DNA of 64,000 bases, taken from the NCBI RefSeq assembly GCF_003096355.1, contig NZ_QEKI01000015.1, positions 1-64,000 of the forward strand, given 5' to 3'. The position numbers and the translations under genes are program-made. Shown here piece by piece: positions 28,638-43,166 of the stretch; within the stretch, counting starts at the first letter, position 1, and each line of letters opens with the position of its first letter. The DNA is from Pontibacter virosus (GTDB taxonomy: Bacteria; Bacteroidota; Bacteroidia; Cytophagales; Hymenobacteraceae). A model generated the notes under the pieces. That model saw nothing but the letters and a program-made list of their open reading frames with translations, did no database searches and had not been told where the DNA came from.

Positions 28638-30980
28638 TCAAGCACTCTTCAATTTGCGAAGACCCTTCCTTTTGATTTCTTTTATACCATAGCCGTAGCC
28701 GTAGCTGCCAATGCCATCCTTAGCGTCGTTCAATACTATCACTGGGTTTTTCAGCTCTTTGCCCCTGTAGATACTATCAATGATTTTAAGTTGCTTTTTT
28801 AAAGTATAGGCGTAGCGGACAATGTAGATAGTTGAATCAGCCACAGCGTTCAAACTGAACGCGTCGGCCACCTGACCTATAGGAGCAGTATCGATAATGA
28901 TATGATCAAAGCTTTTCTTCAACTCCTCTATCAGATGAGTTAATTTGGAAGACATGATAAGTTCTGCCGGGTTGGGAGGAATAGGACCTGAACTGATTAT
29001 AAAGAGATTAGAATCAAATTCGCATGGCTTCAGTATGTCAGCTATCCCCAATTCTTTTGAGATAATAAAATCAGATAGTCCGCACGCATTCATCAGGCCT
29101 AACTCTTCAGTAATTCTTGGGTTTCTCAAATCCAATTCCAGTAAAACCACTCGTTTACCGGATAAGGCCAGAGCTGCCCCTAAATTTATAGTAAAGAATG
29201 TCTTTCCTTCACCGCTCATGCTAGATGTGACCAGTATTGTTTTGTTCTCCTTGTCAACAGCAGCGAATTGCAGTTTCGCTCTGATGAGGCGAAACATCTC
29301 TACAATCGGAGAGTGGCTGTTGGTAGACACCACCAGCGTATCCGGAGAACTGTTGTGCAAAATCTCACCCAAAATAGGAGTCGACGTCAATTGCTCTACT
29401 TCTTGTTGGGTTTGCACTTTGGTATCAAGCAACCCTTTTAAAAAAATTCCTGCAAAAGGTATCCCCAATCCAAGCATCAAGCCCAGCAAGTAGAAGGTCT
29501 GCTTATCAGGGCTGATAGGGTTGTCAGTTGCAATAGCGGGATCAATGATTCGGCTATTGGAGATATTGGCAGCTAAAGACAGGGCAGATTCTTCTCGCTT
29601 TTGAAGCAGGTATAGGTATAGGTTTTGCTTTATGGCCTGCTGTCGGTTGATTTCCAACAGCTCCCGCTCCATAGAAGGCACTTTACTGATTTTGGATTCG
29701 AATTGCCCTGAGGATGCTCTTAGATTATTGCTGGTGATGATGAGACTCTTTTTGATATTTCTCAGGTTCTCTGTTATGTTTCCCCTCAAATCGTTTAGCT
29801 GTTCTGTAACGTTCTGAACTAAGGGATTATCCGGAAAGGCATTCTTAAGCAGACGCTCTCTCTCAAGTTGCAACTCATTAAATTTCGCGATTAGCCCTGT
29901 CAGAGTCGGGTCCTGAATGGTTAGCGTACTAGGCACCATTTTATACTGGTTGTTGCTGCTGTTCAGGTAATCTTCAATCGACTCCAAAATCTCTATTTGA
30001 ATGGCCCAATCTGACAACTTACTGTTGTACCCGCTAGCCTGCTCCATATACTGCGAGGCCTGCGTGTTCACATCCGTTAACTTATTATCGCGCTTATATT
30101 TTTCCACATCCTTTTCGACATCTGAAAGCTCTGTGGTGAGGTATTTAAGCCGCTCATCCAAAAACTCTATAGTACTGGAAGCTTGCAGATTTTTGTACTC
30201 TATTGCTTCCTTGTTATACACTTCAACCAACTTGTTAATTATGTTTTTTCCTTTTTCGGGAACTGGGTCTGACAGACTTATTCTCAGCACATTGGTGTCT
30301 TCTCTTTTGGGATTTATTACCATACTCCAATTATAATGCTGTGCTACTTTCTTTAAGTCATGGAAAACCACTTGTATTTTCTGTCCAACAGGCACTTCAG
30401 AAGTGGCTACCCCTGTGGCAACCACCACCGTAAATATGCCATATGGCCTTTTTACTTGCTGCCCAAACCTAAGCTTTGCTCGCTCTCCTTCACCCTCCTC
30501 TAAAATAAACCCCCCCTCAGGGGTCAGATGTATGAAAATTGATTTTCCGAAACTACTCGAATCAAACTGGCTAACAATCACTTTGATAGGTACATCCTTT
30601 CCATATATCTCCATGCTTTTCGCGGTTCCTTCCACCCAATAGCTCGTAGATAGGTCTAGTTCACGTACTACACGCTGCATAAGGCTCAAGGCATACAGTA
30701 CTTCAATTTCGTTATTGATATTATTGGAAGTCCTCATAATGCTAAAATCCCCAAAGCCTCCACCATCAGATTCCTCCTGGTTCCCTTTCAAGAGTATGGT
30801 ACTGCTTATACTATACTGAGGGATGGTATAATACAGGCAATAGAAGTATGCACCGCCAATTCCAAGCACACCTCCAAACAAAAACAGATACCAGTACCTA
30901 AGGTACTTGCCTAGGATTTCCTTAATATCTTTTGGCTCAGGCTGTTCTGATTTTAGTGGAAAAAGCTCTTTTTCTCTCAT
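28638..30980 (-). CDS. wzc: Wzc-like polysaccharide co-polymerase with BY-kinase domain
   Basis: A 780-residue protein. Residues ~25-55 contain the first membrane helix (YWYLFLFGGVLGIGGAYFY), then a Wzz domain and a long coiled-coil region (~270-440). A second helix (~500-520, YLLGLMLGLGIPFAGIFLKG) leads to the cytoplasmic kinase. Walker A is SSMSGEGKT near 588, Walker A' VVLLELDLRNPR, Walker B HIIIDTAPIG. The C-terminus has a Tyr cluster (GSYGYGYG), the usual autophosphorylation site. It controls chain length with Wza and Wzy. wza ends 12 bp upstream. No separate Wzb-like phosphatase was seen in the window. Confidence 0.92.
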   Translation of the reverse strand: MREKELFPLKSEQPEPKDIKEILGKYLRYWYLFLFGGVLGIGGAYFYCLYYTIPQYSISSTILLKGNQEESDGGGFGDFSIMRTSNNINNEIEVLYALSLMQRVVRELDLSTSYWVEGTAKSMEIYGKDVPIKVIVSQFDSSSFGKSIFIHLTPEGGFILEEGEGERAKLRFGQQVKRPYGIFTVVVATGVATSEVPVGQKIQVVFHDLKKVAQHYNWSMVINPKREDTNVLRISLSDPVPEKGKNIINKLVEVYNKEAIEYKNLQASSTIEFLDERLKYLTTELSDVEKDVEKYKRDNKLTDVNTQASQYMEQASGYNSKLSDWAIQIEILESIEDYLNSSNNQYKMVPSTLTIQDPTLTGLIAKFNELQLERERLLKNAFPDNPLVQNVTEQLNDLRGNITENLRNIKKSLIITSNNLRASSGQFESKISKVPSMERELLEINRQQAIKQNLYLYLLQKREESALSLAANISNSRIIDPAIATDNPISPDKQTFYLLGLMLGLGIPFAGIFLKGLLDTKVQTQQEVEQLTSTPILGEILHNSSPDTLVVSTNSHSPIVEMFRLIRAKLQFAAVDKENKTILVTSSMSGEGKTFFTINLGAALALSGKRVVLLELDLRNPRITEELGLMNACGLSDFIISKELGIADILKPCEFDSNLFIISSGPIPPNPAELIMSSKLTHLIEELKKSFDHIIIDTAPIGQVADAFSLNAVADSTIYIVRYAYTLKKQLKIIDSIYRGKELKNPVIVLNDAKDGIGSYGYGYGIKEIKRKGLRKLKSA

Positions 30981-37857: not shown

Positions 37858-38541
37858 AGCTTTGCTGTTTGAGTGATTATCAAAATTGCACTTAAATGTT
37901 TTTCAATCACCTTGGCACTTAATTATTTGAGTCAACTAATGTTCTAGGATTAAAGAATCAATATGCTTGTTGCTATCTTAAAAAGAAACACCAAATTTGT
38001 TAATGCATAAAATACAGTAACCCTAAAACTAATGCAGGCACCCACCTGCCGTAAAGCTTCCATGGAATATAGACAGCCACAGGCTAATGTATTTCCAAGG
38101 TACTGAATGCAGAGATGACGAATGTTTGTTGTTATAATAGCTTCTGTCAAAAGCTTTTAGAAAAGGGTTGTAGACACCTTATACGAATTTATTTAAACAA
38201 AAATTACTTAAGTTAAATAAAGGCAGTTCTTAAAAGGCGAGCGTATATGATTTGTTAGTATAAGTCAAGTAATTATTAGTAAATAAACTTTTGCATCTTC
38301 ATTCAGTATTTTTATCTGAAAATTATTTAATTTTCTCAGTCTATAATCTTGCTATTTCGTAAAATTATTCTAGTAAATATTGTTTTGAACTCATCGCTTC
38401 TTCATAATTATTAGATTAAGAGTGATTTAGAGAATATTTAACTAATCATCTTCTGCCGAATGTCGAATTTGAAATTGCCGAATGTCGAATTTGAAATTTG
38501 AAGCCATCATTTTATTCTGTTACACATAAAATAAAATAGAC
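37858..38541. other. 684-bp AT-rich divergent intergenic region
   Basis: This separates the leftward amino-sugar operon from the rightward sorting-tag/exosortase cassette, so promoters for both directions must lie within it. No credible gene was seen; the 66-codon minus frame at 37950-38150 lacks domain character. The right end holds a 22-bp tandem repeat (listed separately). No clear TAnnTTTG match was found. Confidence 0.45.
38454..38497. repeat. Two perfect tandem copies of a 22-bp unit
   Basis: Units at 38454-38475 and 38476-38497 are identical and begin TGCCGAATGTCGAATTTG. Each unit itself contains two GAAT-type steps (CCGAATGTCGAATTT). They end 44 bp before the start codon of the sorting-tag gene, in the region where a promoter or operator would sit. 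A direct-repeat operator is possible, as is copy-number variation. Confidence 0.8.
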
Positions 38542-38796
38542 ATGCAAAAAATATTAACCAGTACAGTGATTACATTGGTGATTTTCCTGTTTACAGCCAC
38601 TATAGATGTGGTAGCGCAAGGGCGAAACATAGATAGACCAAGCCGCAATGGTGATACCCCGGGCCGAAACAAAGGTGCTACAGGTGTACCTTTAGATGGT
38701 GGTGTGGCTGTATTGCTGACAGCTGGCACGGCTTACGGTATTAAAAAGCTAAGGGACTATCGAAAAAGCAACAGAAGCAATAACCCTTATACTTGA
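38542..38796 (+). CDS. Minimal secreted protein with PID-CTERM-like sorting tag
   Basis: An 84-residue protein made of three parts: a signal peptide (residues 1-25, ending DVVAQ), a short Arg/Asn/Gly-rich linker (RNIDRPSRNGDTPGRNKG), and a C-terminal GVPLDGGVAVLLTAGTAYGI helix followed by the basic KKLRDYRKSNR. The PLDGG motif, hydrophobic helix and basic tail are what I recall for the small Bacteroidota sorting region called PID-CTERM. It is 43 bp upstream of an exosortase gene, exactly where a cognate substrate is expected. Almost nothing remains besides the tag, so its mature product would be a very short peptide. Assignment to the named family is from memory. Confidence 0.72.
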   Translation: MQKILTSTVITLVIFLFTATIDVVAQGRNIDRPSRNGDTPGRNKGATGVPLDGGVAVLLTAGTAYGIKKLRDYRKSNRSNNPYT

Positions 38797-38839
38797 TTAG
38801 CTATTGCTCTTATTATAACATTCTTAGCTGCTATCGCCT

Positions 38840-39376
38840 ATGAGAGAGCATGGTATAGTTTTGAGGTTTTTAATCTTCTCACTGAGCCTTTGCATTGTGT
38901 GGTTTCTTGTGTATGATTTTTGGCTGAGCCTACTAGACAATTGGTTAAGCCTGAAAATTGTGCACTCAACAGTGCACTTTCTGAGCTTTATTGGATATAA
39001 TGCTGACGCAAACGGTATTATGGTGCAGATAGATGGCGCAGACACTGTTTTTGTTTATCATGCTTGCAATGGGATGGTGCTGATGGCTCTTTTTACAGGC
39101 TTCATTGTTGCTTTTCCAGGTCCTATCATTAAAAAGCTATTTTTCATCCCTATTGGTCTATTACTAATTTATATCCTGAATATATTACGTGTGTCTGCTT
39201 TGGCTCTAAATGCACATCACTTTAGTTATACAGTAGACTTCAACCACAAATACACTTTTACAATAATTGTGTACGCGGCTATTTTTGTTTTATGGATGAT
39301 TTGGGTTAAAAGATATTCCGGAGTAGGAAAACATGTTAAGGCGCAAAATCCTAAGTCCCAAGCAACAAGTTATTAA
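38840..39376 (+). CDS. Exosortase-family protein (Bacteroidota type)
   Basis: A 178-residue membrane protein with about five to six helices. The three catalytic positions of exosortases are present: Cys76 in VYHACNGMVLM, Arg117 in LNILRVSALAL and His136 in DFNHKYTF. The length fits the short bacteroidete exosortases (XrtF/XrtX-like) rather than the long proteobacterial EpsH. It would cleave the sorting tag of secreted substrates at the outer face of the inner membrane, probably coupling them to an envelope glycan. It is followed, with a 44-bp overlap, by a membrane protein that is likely its partner. The start MREHGIVLRF is uncertain by a few codons. Confidence 0.85.
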   Translation: MREHGIVLRFLIFSLSLCIVWFLVYDFWLSLLDNWLSLKIVHSTVHFLSFIGYNADANGIMVQIDGADTVFVYHACNGMVLMALFTGFIVAFPGPIIKKLFFIPIGLLLIYILNILRVSALALNAHHFSYTVDFNHKYTFTIIVYAAIFVLWMIWVKRYSGVGKHVKAQNPKSQATSY

Positions 39377-39815
39377 ATGGAAATGGACTATCCTTCTTAG
39401 TCTTATCACTATGTTGGTTTTGATAGGTCACCAGGAAGAATCTGTAAAAGGGTATTTTGCTTTTATTTTGGATGAATTATCTAAAACCTCTTTTCAAAAT
39501 AAGGGGGCATACCTTGATTTAAAATATTTTGAGGTAAGCAGCAGAGCTTTGACAATGATTTATAGAATTCTTTATTGTACCATATGTTTACTAATAATAC
39601 ATTACTATTTTGGGGCTTCTAAAATCACTAAAATTGCTATTCTGCTTTATTTATTTCTTTTTGTATTGACTTTAGGAATGTATGTGTGCGCTGAGCAATC
39701 AGAGTTGTCTCAACTCCACACGGTTGCTTTTAGAATTGATACACTGCTCGTATCTCCTATGCCAATAATTATATTAATTCCTGCCCTTAGTCTGATTCCA
39801 GCAGTAAAAGAATAA
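39333..39815 (+). CDS. Exosortase-associated small membrane protein
   Basis: A 160-residue membrane protein: an N-terminal helix (WTILLSLITMLVLIGHQEES), a periplasmic segment of about 45 residues, and three further helices (ALTMIYRILYCTICLLIIHY, IAILLYLFLFVLTLGMYVCA, PMPIIILIPALSLIP). Proteins of this size and topology accompany bacteroidete exosortases and are annotated only as system-associated. The 44-bp overlap with the exosortase gene strongly suggests a linked function. No catalytic motif is visible. The family name is from memory and should be tested. Confidence 0.68.
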   Translation: MLRRKILSPKQQVIKWKWTILLSLITMLVLIGHQEESVKGYFAFILDELSKTSFQNKGAYLDLKYFEVSSRALTMIYRILYCTICLLIIHYYFGASKITKIAILLYLFLFVLTLGMYVCAEQSELSQLHTVAFRIDTLLVSPMPIIILIPALSLIPAVKE

Positions 39816-40066: not shown

Positions 40067-41458
40067 ATGTCACATAAATACTCTACCTTATTTAGCTGGA
40101 TTAATGTAACACTTGACTATTTTATCATAAATGGTACTCTATACCTATCATTTATAATATCTGAACGCAGTTTTGCTTGGGGAGAGGTATATGACTATAA
40201 ATTAACTTTGCTGCTTTTAAACTTTTGTTGGTTCTACTGCTCACATGTTTTTAATATTTACAGTCAGATACTAAAACGAGAGGCTGTTCCTATAATGAGA
40301 GCTAATGTTGGAGCGCTATGTTTATTTATGATATTAGCTATACTTATAAAGTTTATTCTGCCTCAGCTATATATTCCACCAACTCCATTTATTTATTATT
40401 TTATCCTTTTACCAATTCTGATCCTTTCCTTGAGATTTGCATTCTTATTATTAAGAAAGTATAGAAGAAAATCTTGGCTAGGTTCTAATAATATTGCTAT
40501 TGTTGGTGCTAGCTTAGCGGGAAAAGATCTCTATAACTACATTACTATCAACAATCAACTAGATTATAACGTCGTTGGAATTTTTGATGATAATCCATCT
40601 AACGTCCCTCCTCATATAAACTACTTAGGAAAAATAGATGACTGTATAAGCTATGCTGAGTCTAATGGTATAAGTGAAATTTACTGCGCATTACCATATA
40701 ACCAAAGCAACAAGATAGAATCACTAATGCAAGAGGCAGACGCGCATATGATTCTTTTTAGATTAGTGCCAGATCTTAAAGGTACAATCCATCATAATTT
40801 CTTGGTGGAGTTGTTCGGTTACGTACCTATCCTTAAGCTCAGACAAGAACCTTTGGAAAGTAAGGCCAATGAAATTCTTAAAAGAGGCTTTGATATCTTC
40901 TTTTCATTACTTGTCATAGTTTTAATTTTGAGTTGGCTTATACCTCTTATGGCTTTGATTATTAAACTTGAATCTAAGGGACCAGTGTTTTTTAAGCAAC
41001 AACGCTCAGGTAAAAGGAATAAGGTATTTTATTGTCTCAAGTTTAGGAGCATGAAGGTCAATTTAGATTGTGATACATTACAGACGTGCAAGGGAGACCA
41101 AAGGATTACCCGAGTTGGTAAATTTATCAGGAAAACAAGTATTGACGAATTACCACAGTTTATCAATGTCTTTATGGGAGATATGTCTGTGGTCGGTCCT
41201 CGTCCCCATATGCTTAAGCACACACAAGATTACTCTAAAGTGATTGATAATTATATGGTTCGGCATTTCCTTACTCCCGGCATCACAGGTTGGGCACAAG
41301 TAAATGGGTATAGGGGCGAAACGAAAGAGACTATAGCTATGCTTAATCGTGTACAAGCTGATTTATGGTATCTAGAACATTGGTCCATTCTGCTCGATCT
41401 GAAAATTATCTTCCTTACAATTTGGCAGGGCTTTAGGTATAATGACAAGGCTTATTAA
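40067..41458 (+). CDS. WcaJ-like undecaprenyl-phosphate sugar phosphotransferase
   Basis: A 463-residue initiating transferase. About five N-terminal helices (residues 10-130) precede a Rossmann-like middle domain (IAIVGASLAGKDLYNYITI, GIFDDNPSNVPPHINYLGKI). The C-terminal bacterial sugar transferase domain carries KRGFDIFFSLLVIVLIL, GPVFFKQQRSGKRNKVFYCL with KFRSMK, TSIDELPQFINVFMGDMSVV with GPRPH, and PGITGWAQVNGYRG. It transfers a hexose-1-phosphate to undecaprenyl phosphate and so starts the repeat unit assembled by the leftward genes. It is 251 bp downstream of the exosortase partner and may share transcription with it. Confidence 0.9.
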   Translation: MSHKYSTLFSWINVTLDYFIINGTLYLSFIISERSFAWGEVYDYKLTLLLLNFCWFYCSHVFNIYSQILKREAVPIMRANVGALCLFMILAILIKFILPQLYIPPTPFIYYFILLPILILSLRFAFLLLRKYRRKSWLGSNNIAIVGASLAGKDLYNYITINNQLDYNVVGIFDDNPSNVPPHINYLGKIDDCISYAESNGISEIYCALPYNQSNKIESLMQEADAHMILFRLVPDLKGTIHHNFLVELFGYVPILKLRQEPLESKANEILKRGFDIFFSLLVIVLILSWLIPLMALIIKLESKGPVFFKQQRSGKRNKVFYCLKFRSMKVNLDCDTLQTCKGDQRITRVGKFIRKTSIDELPQFINVFMGDMSVVGPRPHMLKHTQDYSKVIDNYMVRHFLTPGITGWAQVNGYRGETKETIAMLNRVQADLWYLEHWSILLDLKIIFLTIWQGFRYNDKAY

Positions 41459-41726: not shown

Positions 41727-42260
41727 GTGACGGAACAGGAGTTAATAGCAGGTTGCCAAAAGGCCGAAAGTAAAGCGCAGAAATGCCTTTACGAGCGCTT
41801 TGCCTCGCCGATGTACGGTGTGTGCCTGCGTTACCTCAAAAACCAGATGGATGCTGAGGAGGCTTTACTCAATGGGTTTATGAAGGTATACCAAAACATA
41901 GACAAGTTTGAAGGCAAGGGCAGCTTCGAGGGTTGGGTAAGACGCATCATGGTGAATGAAGCGTTGGGGTTTTTGAGAAAGAAAGAGTCGCTATACCTGT
42001 CGATAGAAGACGACCACGTACAGGTGGCGGGTAGCATGGGAGCCGACCACGATCTGGCAGAAGGCGAATTGCTGGAGCTTTTGCGCACTTTACCTGCCGG
42101 CTACAGGGCAGTTTTTAACCTGTATGCAATTGAGGGATATTCTCACAAAGAAATAGCCGATATGCTGAATATCACGGAAGGCACTTCGAAATCGCAGTTA
42201 AGCAAAGCACGCGCCATGCTGCAACGAAGACTGACCGGACAGGAAGCAGTCGCTAGCTAA
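41727..42260 (+). CDS. ECF-type RNA polymerase sigma factor
   Basis: A 177-residue sigma-70 family protein with a GTG start. Region 2 covers ~10-75 (CLYERFASPMYGVCLRYLKN, DAEEALLNGFMKVYQNIDKF, GSFEGWVRRIMVNEALGFLR). Region 4 covers ~115-165 (LRTLPAGYRAVFNLYAIEGY with SHKEIADMLNITEGTSKSQL as the helix-turn-helix). It would direct transcription of envelope-type genes. The next two genes are a single-pass membrane protein and a beta-barrel, a common arrangement in this phylum. Its anti-sigma factor is likely the gene just downstream. Confidence 0.9.
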   Translation: MTEQELIAGCQKAESKAQKCLYERFASPMYGVCLRYLKNQMDAEEALLNGFMKVYQNIDKFEGKGSFEGWVRRIMVNEALGFLRKKESLYLSIEDDHVQVAGSMGADHDLAEGELLELLRTLPAGYRAVFNLYAIEGYSHKEIADMLNITEGTSKSQLSKARAMLQRRLTGQEAVAS

Positions 42261-42281
42261 AAATAATAAGGAGGTTCAGTT

Positions 42282-43166
42282 ATGAAACCAGAAGACATAG
42301 ACAAGCTATTCAAGGAGCGTTTGGGACCTTCGTCACCGACACCTCATGCCGACCTTTGGAACAGACTGCAGGACCGGATAGAAACTGAAATGCCTGCCGC
42401 CAACAAAGGCGAATCGAAGCCGCGAGGGTTTATGTGGCTCTCCTACTCTATCGCGGCCGCCATTGCGCTGTTACTCTCCGTGGGCATCGTATTTTACAAC
42501 GTGCAGAACGGCTCTGTGCCAGTTGACAGAGACGGCTTGGCCGATGTAAACGGTTTGAAGCCAGAGCAGCCTCTCGTTATACCTGAGCCAGTTATGGCCG
42601 ATGCGCAACTAGCACAAGTAACTGAAGAACCTGTGACTTCGCCATCAGATGTTAAAGAAGTGGTTGAGCCTGCTACACCTTCCACAACTACTACCCCAGC
42701 AACCACGCAGGCAGAAATGGTTAAGAAGCAAATGATCGCCAAAGCAGAAACCAGAGCGGATGTGAAAAAGGCCAGCCTGAAAAACAGTACAAGAAATTCG
42801 GTGTCTGCTCAACAGTTGGCAGCACAGGTAGAGCAGCCGGCTACACCTGACGCACCTCAGAAAGTCGAAATTGGTAACACAGGAGAAACTGCTCCGGCTA
42901 CTTTCGCTGCTAACACCGTGGATTTGAACGCCCAACCGGTAGAAATTATAATAAAACGAGCCGTCGCTGTGCAAGAAGTGGAATCAGAAGTAGAGCTTAG
43001 CGGCTTTGAAAAGAAGCAAAAACTGGCAAAGAACATTTTTAAGCAGGTGCGGAACCTGTCTAACGGAGAACGGGTGGAGTTGTCTGAGCTCGGTATCAAC
43101 GCAGACAGAATTGCACTTGAAACACAAATTGGAAAACAGAAAATATCAAAAGTCATTCAACTCTAA
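42282..43166 (+). CDS. Single-pass membrane protein, probable anti-sigma-like regulator
   Basis: A 294-residue protein of unrecognised family. The first ~50 residues are cytoplasmic and polar (MKPEDIDKLFKERLGPSSPT, DLWNRLQDRIETEM), as in bacteroidete anti-sigma proteins. One membrane helix at 51-73 (MWLSYSIAAAIALLLSVGIV) follows. The periplasmic part is Ala/Pro/Thr/Glu-rich low complexity, with a more conserved end (EKKQKLAKNIFKQVRNLSNG and RVELSELGINADRIALETQI). An AAGGAGG-like ribosome site (42269-42275) precedes the start. Position 21 bp after the sigma gene and topology support, but do not prove, an anti-sigma role. Confidence 0.7.
   Translation: MKPEDIDKLFKERLGPSSPTPHADLWNRLQDRIETEMPAANKGESKPRGFMWLSYSIAAAIALLLSVGIVFYNVQNGSVPVDRDGLADVNGLKPEQPLVIPEPVMADAQLAQVTEEPVTSPSDVKEVVEPATPSTTTTPATTQAEMVKKQMIAKAETRADVKKASLKNSTRNSVSAQQLAAQVEQPATPDAPQKVEIGNTGETAPATFAANTVDLNAQPVEIIIKRAVAVQEVESEVELSGFEKKQKLAKNIFKQVRNLSNGERVELSELGINADRIALETQIGKQKISKVIQL

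Follow-up and report, generated by a model that had tools for sequence, protein, structure and literature searches.

The substrates of exosortases are thought of as tag-carrying proteins, and we know of no exosortase product that has been described as a peptide. Among the described systems, the PEP-CTERM/XrtA (EpsH) one combines a membrane protease, a tripartite C-terminal tag and EPS surroundings (PMC7468200), while the XrtF system of Flavobacterium (TIGR04128 and TIGR04127; Fjoh_1448-1449) pairs an exosortase with a partner protein. According to PMC10936215, deletion of xrtF or of the partner gene in F. johnsoniae lowers colonisation, strongly reduces biofilm and abolishes zorbs, the phenotypes listed are shared with porU or porZ deletions, and the exosortase substrates are named as future work. 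Moreover, type IX linking-sugar genes have been linked with exosortase-associated families (PMC7468200). Taken by analogy, XrtF being a related exosortase other than XrtX, these facts from F. johnsoniae and from PMC7468200 would speak for a function in surface adhesion in which glycan and type IX products take part.

A still closer system is catalogued in NCBIfam as the trio of PID-CTERM, exosortase X (XrtX) and XrtX-associated families. A literature search, with most subscription papers outside its scope, returned no paper for "PID-CTERM" or "CWPPPC" and only unrelated titles for "XrtX", and within that same scope no experimental paper on the XrtX trio was found. The window analysed here, that is, the whole stretch of 64,000 nucleotides from Pontibacter virosus, carries the following genes relevant to this system:

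38542..38796, plus strand: PID-CTERM micropeptide precursor, 84 aa (NF046080, 41.5 bits, cut-off 26)
38840..39376, plus strand: exosortase X (XrtX), 178 aa (NF046081, 188.1 bits, cut-off 170)
39333..39815, plus strand: XrtX-associated membrane protein, 160 aa (NF046082, 99 bits, cut-off 75)
40067..41458, plus strand: WcaJ-type undecaprenyl-phosphate sugar phosphotransferase (TIGR03023, 450.1 bits, cut-off 410.75)
28638..30980, minus strand: Wzc-like polysaccharide co-polymerase/tyrosine kinase of the EPS locus (label by ORF reading)

The micropeptide gene is separated from xrtX by 43 bp, and xrtX overlaps the associated gene by 44 bp; the open reading frames reproduce exactly the coordinates and spacing given in a preliminary description of this DNA. 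Each of the three cassette proteins exceeds the curated cut-off of its NCBIfam family, the three genes lie side by side and no defining feature of the trio that could be tested is violated, so that by profile score the cassette is a complete member of an already catalogued trio. The window linker differs from most substrates of the class sample in lacking a two-Cys loop, and no type IX cargo gene adjoins the cassette. The cassette is thus of a known kind, and the function discussed below is put forward as a hypothesis. The WcaJ gene, which starts 251 bp after the cassette end, is a neighbour outside the conserved trio and may provide functional context. The EPS locus itself (8090-37857, minus strand), which as labelled from ORF reading contains glycosyltransferases, Wzx, Wzc, Wza and nucleotide-sugar enzymes, ends before the plus-strand cassette.

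The resemblance to the other systems is more partial. The window exosortase scores 76.3 bits with the XrtF model TIGR04128, under its cut-off of 90, and the associated protein 31.8 bits with the XrtF-associated family TIGR04127, below the cut-off of 35, so that enzyme and partner are related to those of XrtF by profile score. No PID micropeptide adjoins the exosortase gene in seven loci taken for XrtF (L272-L278; low XrtX scores, XrtF model not applied), and two of the seven putative XrtF genomes have a PID match elsewhere (G191 and, weakly, G303). Among 18 low-scoring exosortase loci, a PID-like micropeptide was found in five (L279, L281, L282, L283 and L289) and none in L287. With respect to PEP-CTERM/XrtA, the window tag has no PEP motif, a search of the genome for PID tags recognised a single tagged micropeptide in place of the many proteins of that system, and the XrtA model TIGR03109 was not among the 19 families matched by the window protein.

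An alignment of 24 XrtX homologues has 17 invariant columns, which include Cys76, Arg117 and His136 (24/24 sequences); these three correspond to what we take to be the catalytic Cys, Arg and His of the exosortase superfamily. The predicted catalytic residues of the window XrtX, already pointed out in the preliminary description, are therefore intact. Its closest relatives among the named matches listed are found in Pontibacter ramchanderi (70% identity) and Pontibacter sp. HSC-36F09 (69%). AlphaFold models XrtX with a pLDDT of 90.4 and the associated protein with 88.4; the latter model shows six helices, and hence "four-helix", the term of the preliminary description, is a rough one. In a fold comparison with the PDB neither protein found a match at E <=0.001, and thus the structures gave no mechanism.

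The distribution of the three genes was followed at several levels. The genome of P. virosus contains two exosortase family matches, one XrtX and one XrtN, the latter (contig C2, 343900-344562) immediately following the gene of its VIT-domain partner. The same genome has one PID tag that exceeds the cut-off, that of the 84-residue protein, together with a second, sub-threshold match (E 0.78) that contains an internal stop. In 59 relatives, XrtX matches (E <=0.001) were found in 18 genomes and PID tags over the cut-off in 16, all of them within those 18. Across 37 genomes of the genus the trio, whose order the preliminary description had proposed to follow in related genomes, is all or none: it is complete in nine, in one of which the associated protein falls below the curated cut-off, and all three members are missing in 28. 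In a class sample of 295 genomes, a PID match (E <=0.01) was obtained in 136/172 genomes with an XrtX-like match (E <=0.001) vs 6/123 without one (Fisher p ~3e-41, related genomes being counted as independent). XrtX exceeds the cut-off in 79 of the 295; 74 of these have a PID match, exactly one in 61 cases, and the five with none count against the explanation preferred below. None of 14 named control genomes has either XrtX or PID_CTERM over the cut-off. The absence of further tag-bearing proteins had been indicated beforehand as an outcome that would speak against a sorting device, and formally this is what the genome shows for the PID tag; yet a single tag does not refute the idea, because it is the usual state, as in the 61 of 74 tag-positive XrtX genomes with exactly one match.

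Two sets of loci were then compared, namely 80 named loci, which are the best 80 of 297 matches and come mostly from Hymenobacter, and 40 class loci taken from the 79 over the cut-off (top-scoring first, with a few on short contigs skipped and the rest hand-picked). A homologue of the associated protein was detected with an iterated profile in all 80 named and in 35/40 class loci, in a few cases not directly beside xrtX. A small tagged gene is present in 62/80 named loci, and in 56 of these it shares the strand of xrtX and lies at most 320 bp upstream of it. In the remaining 18 loci the flanks examined contain no such gene, which also counts against the preferred explanation; 15 of these genomes have a PID tag over the cut-off elsewhere, one has a sub-threshold tag and two have no match. 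Four Hymenobacter genomes (G352, G363, G365 and G380) have five to eight PID-tag matches each, and the tagged proteins read from such multi-tag genomes, encoded at places spread over the genome, are micropeptides whose linkers are alike and of the GGPxP type.

The window precursor consists, by inspection and comparison with congeners, of a predicted signal peptide (residues ~1-25), a linker QGRN...ATGV (26-49), the PLDGG motif with its helix (50-72) and a basic tail (73-84), a layout in keeping with the putative secreted protein of linker and PLDGG-helix-basic tail first described for this gene; the PID_CTERM model, at 41.5 bits, matches residues 49-72 of 84. The Sec signal peptide is predicted by inspection and a hydrophobicity rule only: the hydrophobic N-terminus ends in VVA|QG, and the following linker is rich in R, N, G and P. 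The four regions were first compared in seven Pontibacter sequences, picked for alignable linkers and leaving out four whose linkers differ (L005, L088, L089 and L091). In these seven, signal peptide, linker, PLDGG-helix and tail have identities of 0.32, 0.61, 0.78 and 0.21 and pN/pS values of 0.70, 0.33, 0.20 and 0.55, respectively, with synonymous change near saturation. When all eleven genus-level sequences are considered, identity becomes 0.26 in the signal peptide, 0.35 in the linker, 0.75 in the PLDGG-helix and 0.21 in the tail. The small distance between linker and signal peptide in the eleven means that, in the predicted precursors of Pontibacter, linker conservation is confined to the subgroup of seven and the linker varies between subgroups.

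In the relatives, the substrates are equally small. The longest of 98 non-redundant tagged ORFs at the loci examined has 140 residues, and ORFs started at ATG have 64-140 residues in eight Hymenobacter loci where long open frames surround the tag. A signal-peptidase site was predicted in 95 of the 98; from this site to the tag there are 7-48 residues (median 21), with 46% Pro plus Gly; Gln occupies position +1 in 57/95, the site being assigned by a simple rule of our own rather than a trained predictor, with several cuts that look early. This Gln fits the Q-rule of Bacteroidetes, by which a Gln exposed after signal cleavage is converted to pyroglutamate (PMC5837995). The predicted XrtX substrate is thus minimal and micropeptide-sized across the class, and since the substrates of relatives are micropeptides as well, a processed peptide is the best supported of the roles previously suggested for the window protein.

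In the class loci, where the tag was found in 33/40, two Cys residues stand just before it in 32/33 substrates, and 28/33 match C[WIV]PPx(x)C, vs at most 3/33 in 2000 shuffles. This conservation above the shuffles implies that in most class loci the predicted linker is more than a spacer. The 28 substrates in which this C-W-P-P-P-C-like loop directly precedes the PID tag come from among class loci L195-L232. Only 10/62 named substrates have two Cys before the tag, and the class-type loop is absent from the window linker; in the window protein the match to the NCBIfam PID model begins after the stretch where class substrates have the loop.

PID tags also occur on other bodies. Two proteins of the MSEP-CTERM family (L255 and L256; 733 and 743 bits, cut-off 150) end in PID tags of 29.1 and 28.9 bits (cut-off 26), one locus belonging to Hymenobacter sp. 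15J16-1T3B and the other to a genome of the window's family. As read from these proteins the PID tag is an exchangeable address, which argues for a sorting signal beyond a mere part of an enzyme complex. PID-tagged ORFs of ~1000 residues were considered as a new kind of cargo and the idea was rejected, as the two that were scanned are MSEP-CTERM bodies; L253, L254 and L259 resemble the proteins of L255/L256 (blastp only), and L257 encodes a different protein.

A partnership with type IX cargo in the relatives, which the preliminary description did not foresee, came to light in the genes preceding those for the micropeptides. Neighbours were counted only if co-directional, of at least 250 residues and just upstream of the micropeptide gene, and under this definition a type IX type A tail was present in 16/17 class, 21/24 named and 8/8 selected extra cases, the named and extra cases overlapping in two Botryobacter genes, vs 20/209 control genes scored with the same model. 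Outside these counts stand the micropeptide genes with no such neighbour, namely 16/33 class, 41/65 named and 2/10 extra ones, and the window. As the tail model had been seeded with ten proteins that it later scored, 29 upstream genes were checked with NCBIfam: 28/29 exceed the TIGR04183 cut-off, these 28 having been preselected by the tail model or by their position in the recurrent gene order described below and the one miss, L226, having been included because the model rejected it. Ten random control genes of at least 400 residues gave no TIGR04183 match at a stricter E of 1e-5. Of eight partner bodies that were scanned, four contain DUF4394, one LamG, one FG-GAP and one an Ig-like domain, and one has no such domain. 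Loci L299-L305 and, within the class set, L205 and L221 are examples of a micropeptide gene just downstream of a large type IX cargo gene. The likeness to type IX type A cargo (TIGR04183) therefore lies in a recurrent upstream partner of the micropeptide in relatives, whereas the window micropeptide has no match to the type IX tail in NCBIfam and its gene has no co-directional type IX cargo neighbour in the window.

The polysaccharide neighbourhood was surveyed by tblastn with 16 EPS markers within ~10 kb of xrtX. A Wzc-like homologue lies near xrtX in 30/40 class loci vs 1/20 control regions, which were placed at least 30 kb off on the contigs of 20 class loci (Fisher p ~2e-7), and clustering of called ORFs gave 27/40 vs 1/20; one homologue that was scanned (class locus L196) is a Wzc/EPS tyrosine autokinase. 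One gene order recurs: Wzc and, divergent from it, a large gene followed by the micropeptide gene, xrtX and the associated gene. For WcaJ, the survey over ~10 kb gave 0/40 class and 8/80 named loci, and 57/80 named loci have none of the 16 markers. As judged from gene neighbourhoods, a link with polysaccharide is thus seen in the class loci via Wzc, not WcaJ, so that the coupling to polysaccharide through WcaJ that had been suggested for this locus is not supported as worded, and its broader form is supported by the class loci more than by the named ones. WcaJ was also searched for in 24 genomes of the genus; apart from the window, five loci have xrtX at most 1.5 kb from the orthologue. Seven of the 24 genomes are XrtX-positive, and in one of these (G007) the only WcaJ is a more remote one (53%), which the cassette does not adjoin; six of the 17 XrtX-free genomes keep a WcaJ orthologue with 60-71% identity.

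On balance, we consider it somewhat more likely than not that the cassette is a one-enzyme, one-substrate XrtX system whose substrate is a secreted micropeptide that anchors or finishes surface adhesion structures. The parts read from sequence are an XrtX whose predicted catalytic residues are intact, a partner that is nearly always present and a precursor with putative signal peptide, ~24-residue linker and PID tag; they support the dedicated sorting device with one short substrate that had been proposed. The precursor would be exported by Sec and cut by signal peptidase I at VVA|Q, and the exposed Gln would be converted to pyroglutamate following the Q-rule. XrtX may then cut at PLDGG via Cys76, so that the helix stays behind in the inner membrane, and the C-terminus newly formed on a peptide of ~24-28 residues would be handed to an envelope acceptor, probably lipid- or glycan-linked. 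The product would be a peptide rather than a bulky cargo, and in this anchoring or finishing it would likely act jointly with polysaccharide and, among the relatives, with type IX secreted proteins too. Alternatively, the small protein might never be cut and might be a structural subunit of the XrtX complex, with two membrane passes and a variable linker between them, aiding the folding or the substrate finding of the enzyme or of the associated protein. One tag match per XrtX genome as the commonest state, the close same-strand position of the small gene in 56/80 named loci and the contrast between tag (0.75) and linker (0.35) in the eleven genus-level sequences are all in keeping with a subunit; the linker result slightly lowered our confidence in the secreted micropeptide and slightly raised that in the subunit, which we nevertheless regard as unlikely, given that the same tag is carried by MSEP-CTERM bodies, that some relatives have several micropeptide genes far from xrtX with up to eight tag matches per genome, and that the stretch before the tag is conserved in the class sample.

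It also seems quite unlikely that XrtX is a generic exosortase with several substrates, whose other tags are missed by the PID model and which uses the short protein as a marker or decoy. Short tags, when divergent, can escape models, and the sub-threshold second match could be seen in this light, its internal stop notwithstanding; against this stand the single tag above the cut-off in the genome of P. virosus and the fact that, throughout the genus, XrtX and the small gene strictly occur together. Even less probable is a cassette that serves only the WcaJ-initiated polysaccharide of this locus, with the peptide ligated to the glycan or priming it. The 251 bp to WcaJ and the five other congeneric loci with xrtX close to the orthologue would agree with it, but no WcaJ was found in 40/40 class and 72/80 named loci, more than half of the named loci (57) are free of all the EPS markers, G007 carries its cassette away from its distant WcaJ, and the close orthologue persists in six XrtX-free genomes.

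A wider reading, which we offer only tentatively and hold to be possible rather than probable, is that XrtX mainly makes micropeptides capped at both ends that are dedicated companions of type IX cargo and Wzc-dependent polysaccharide. The caps would be pyroglutamate and a group added by the exosortase, with a CWPPPC disulfide loop in many families, and the peptide might act, for example, as a covalent handle holding a large adhesin in the matrix. If this were true, exosortase and type IX, two sorting systems of Bacteroidota, would be joined in one machine. The interest of the cassette lies in the class-wide micropeptide substrate and in the pairing with type IX cargo in relatives, both of which are testable, and a system of one enzyme and one micropeptide offers an uncomplicated case for learning how an exosortase acts on its substrate.

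Upstream of the cassette, a perfect 22-bp tandem direct repeat (GCCGAATGTCGAATTTGAAATT x2) occupies positions 38455-38498, 43 bp before the micropeptide start. A genome search allowing up to two mismatches found two copies only, both upstream of the micropeptide gene, and the aligned upstream regions of five congeners contain no matching repeat; since the repeat is unique to this site in the genome and has no counterpart in the five congeners, the idea of an operator was set aside. Downstream of WcaJ, at 41727-43166, ORF reading alone suggests a sigma factor gene and, after it, what may be an anti-sigma gene.
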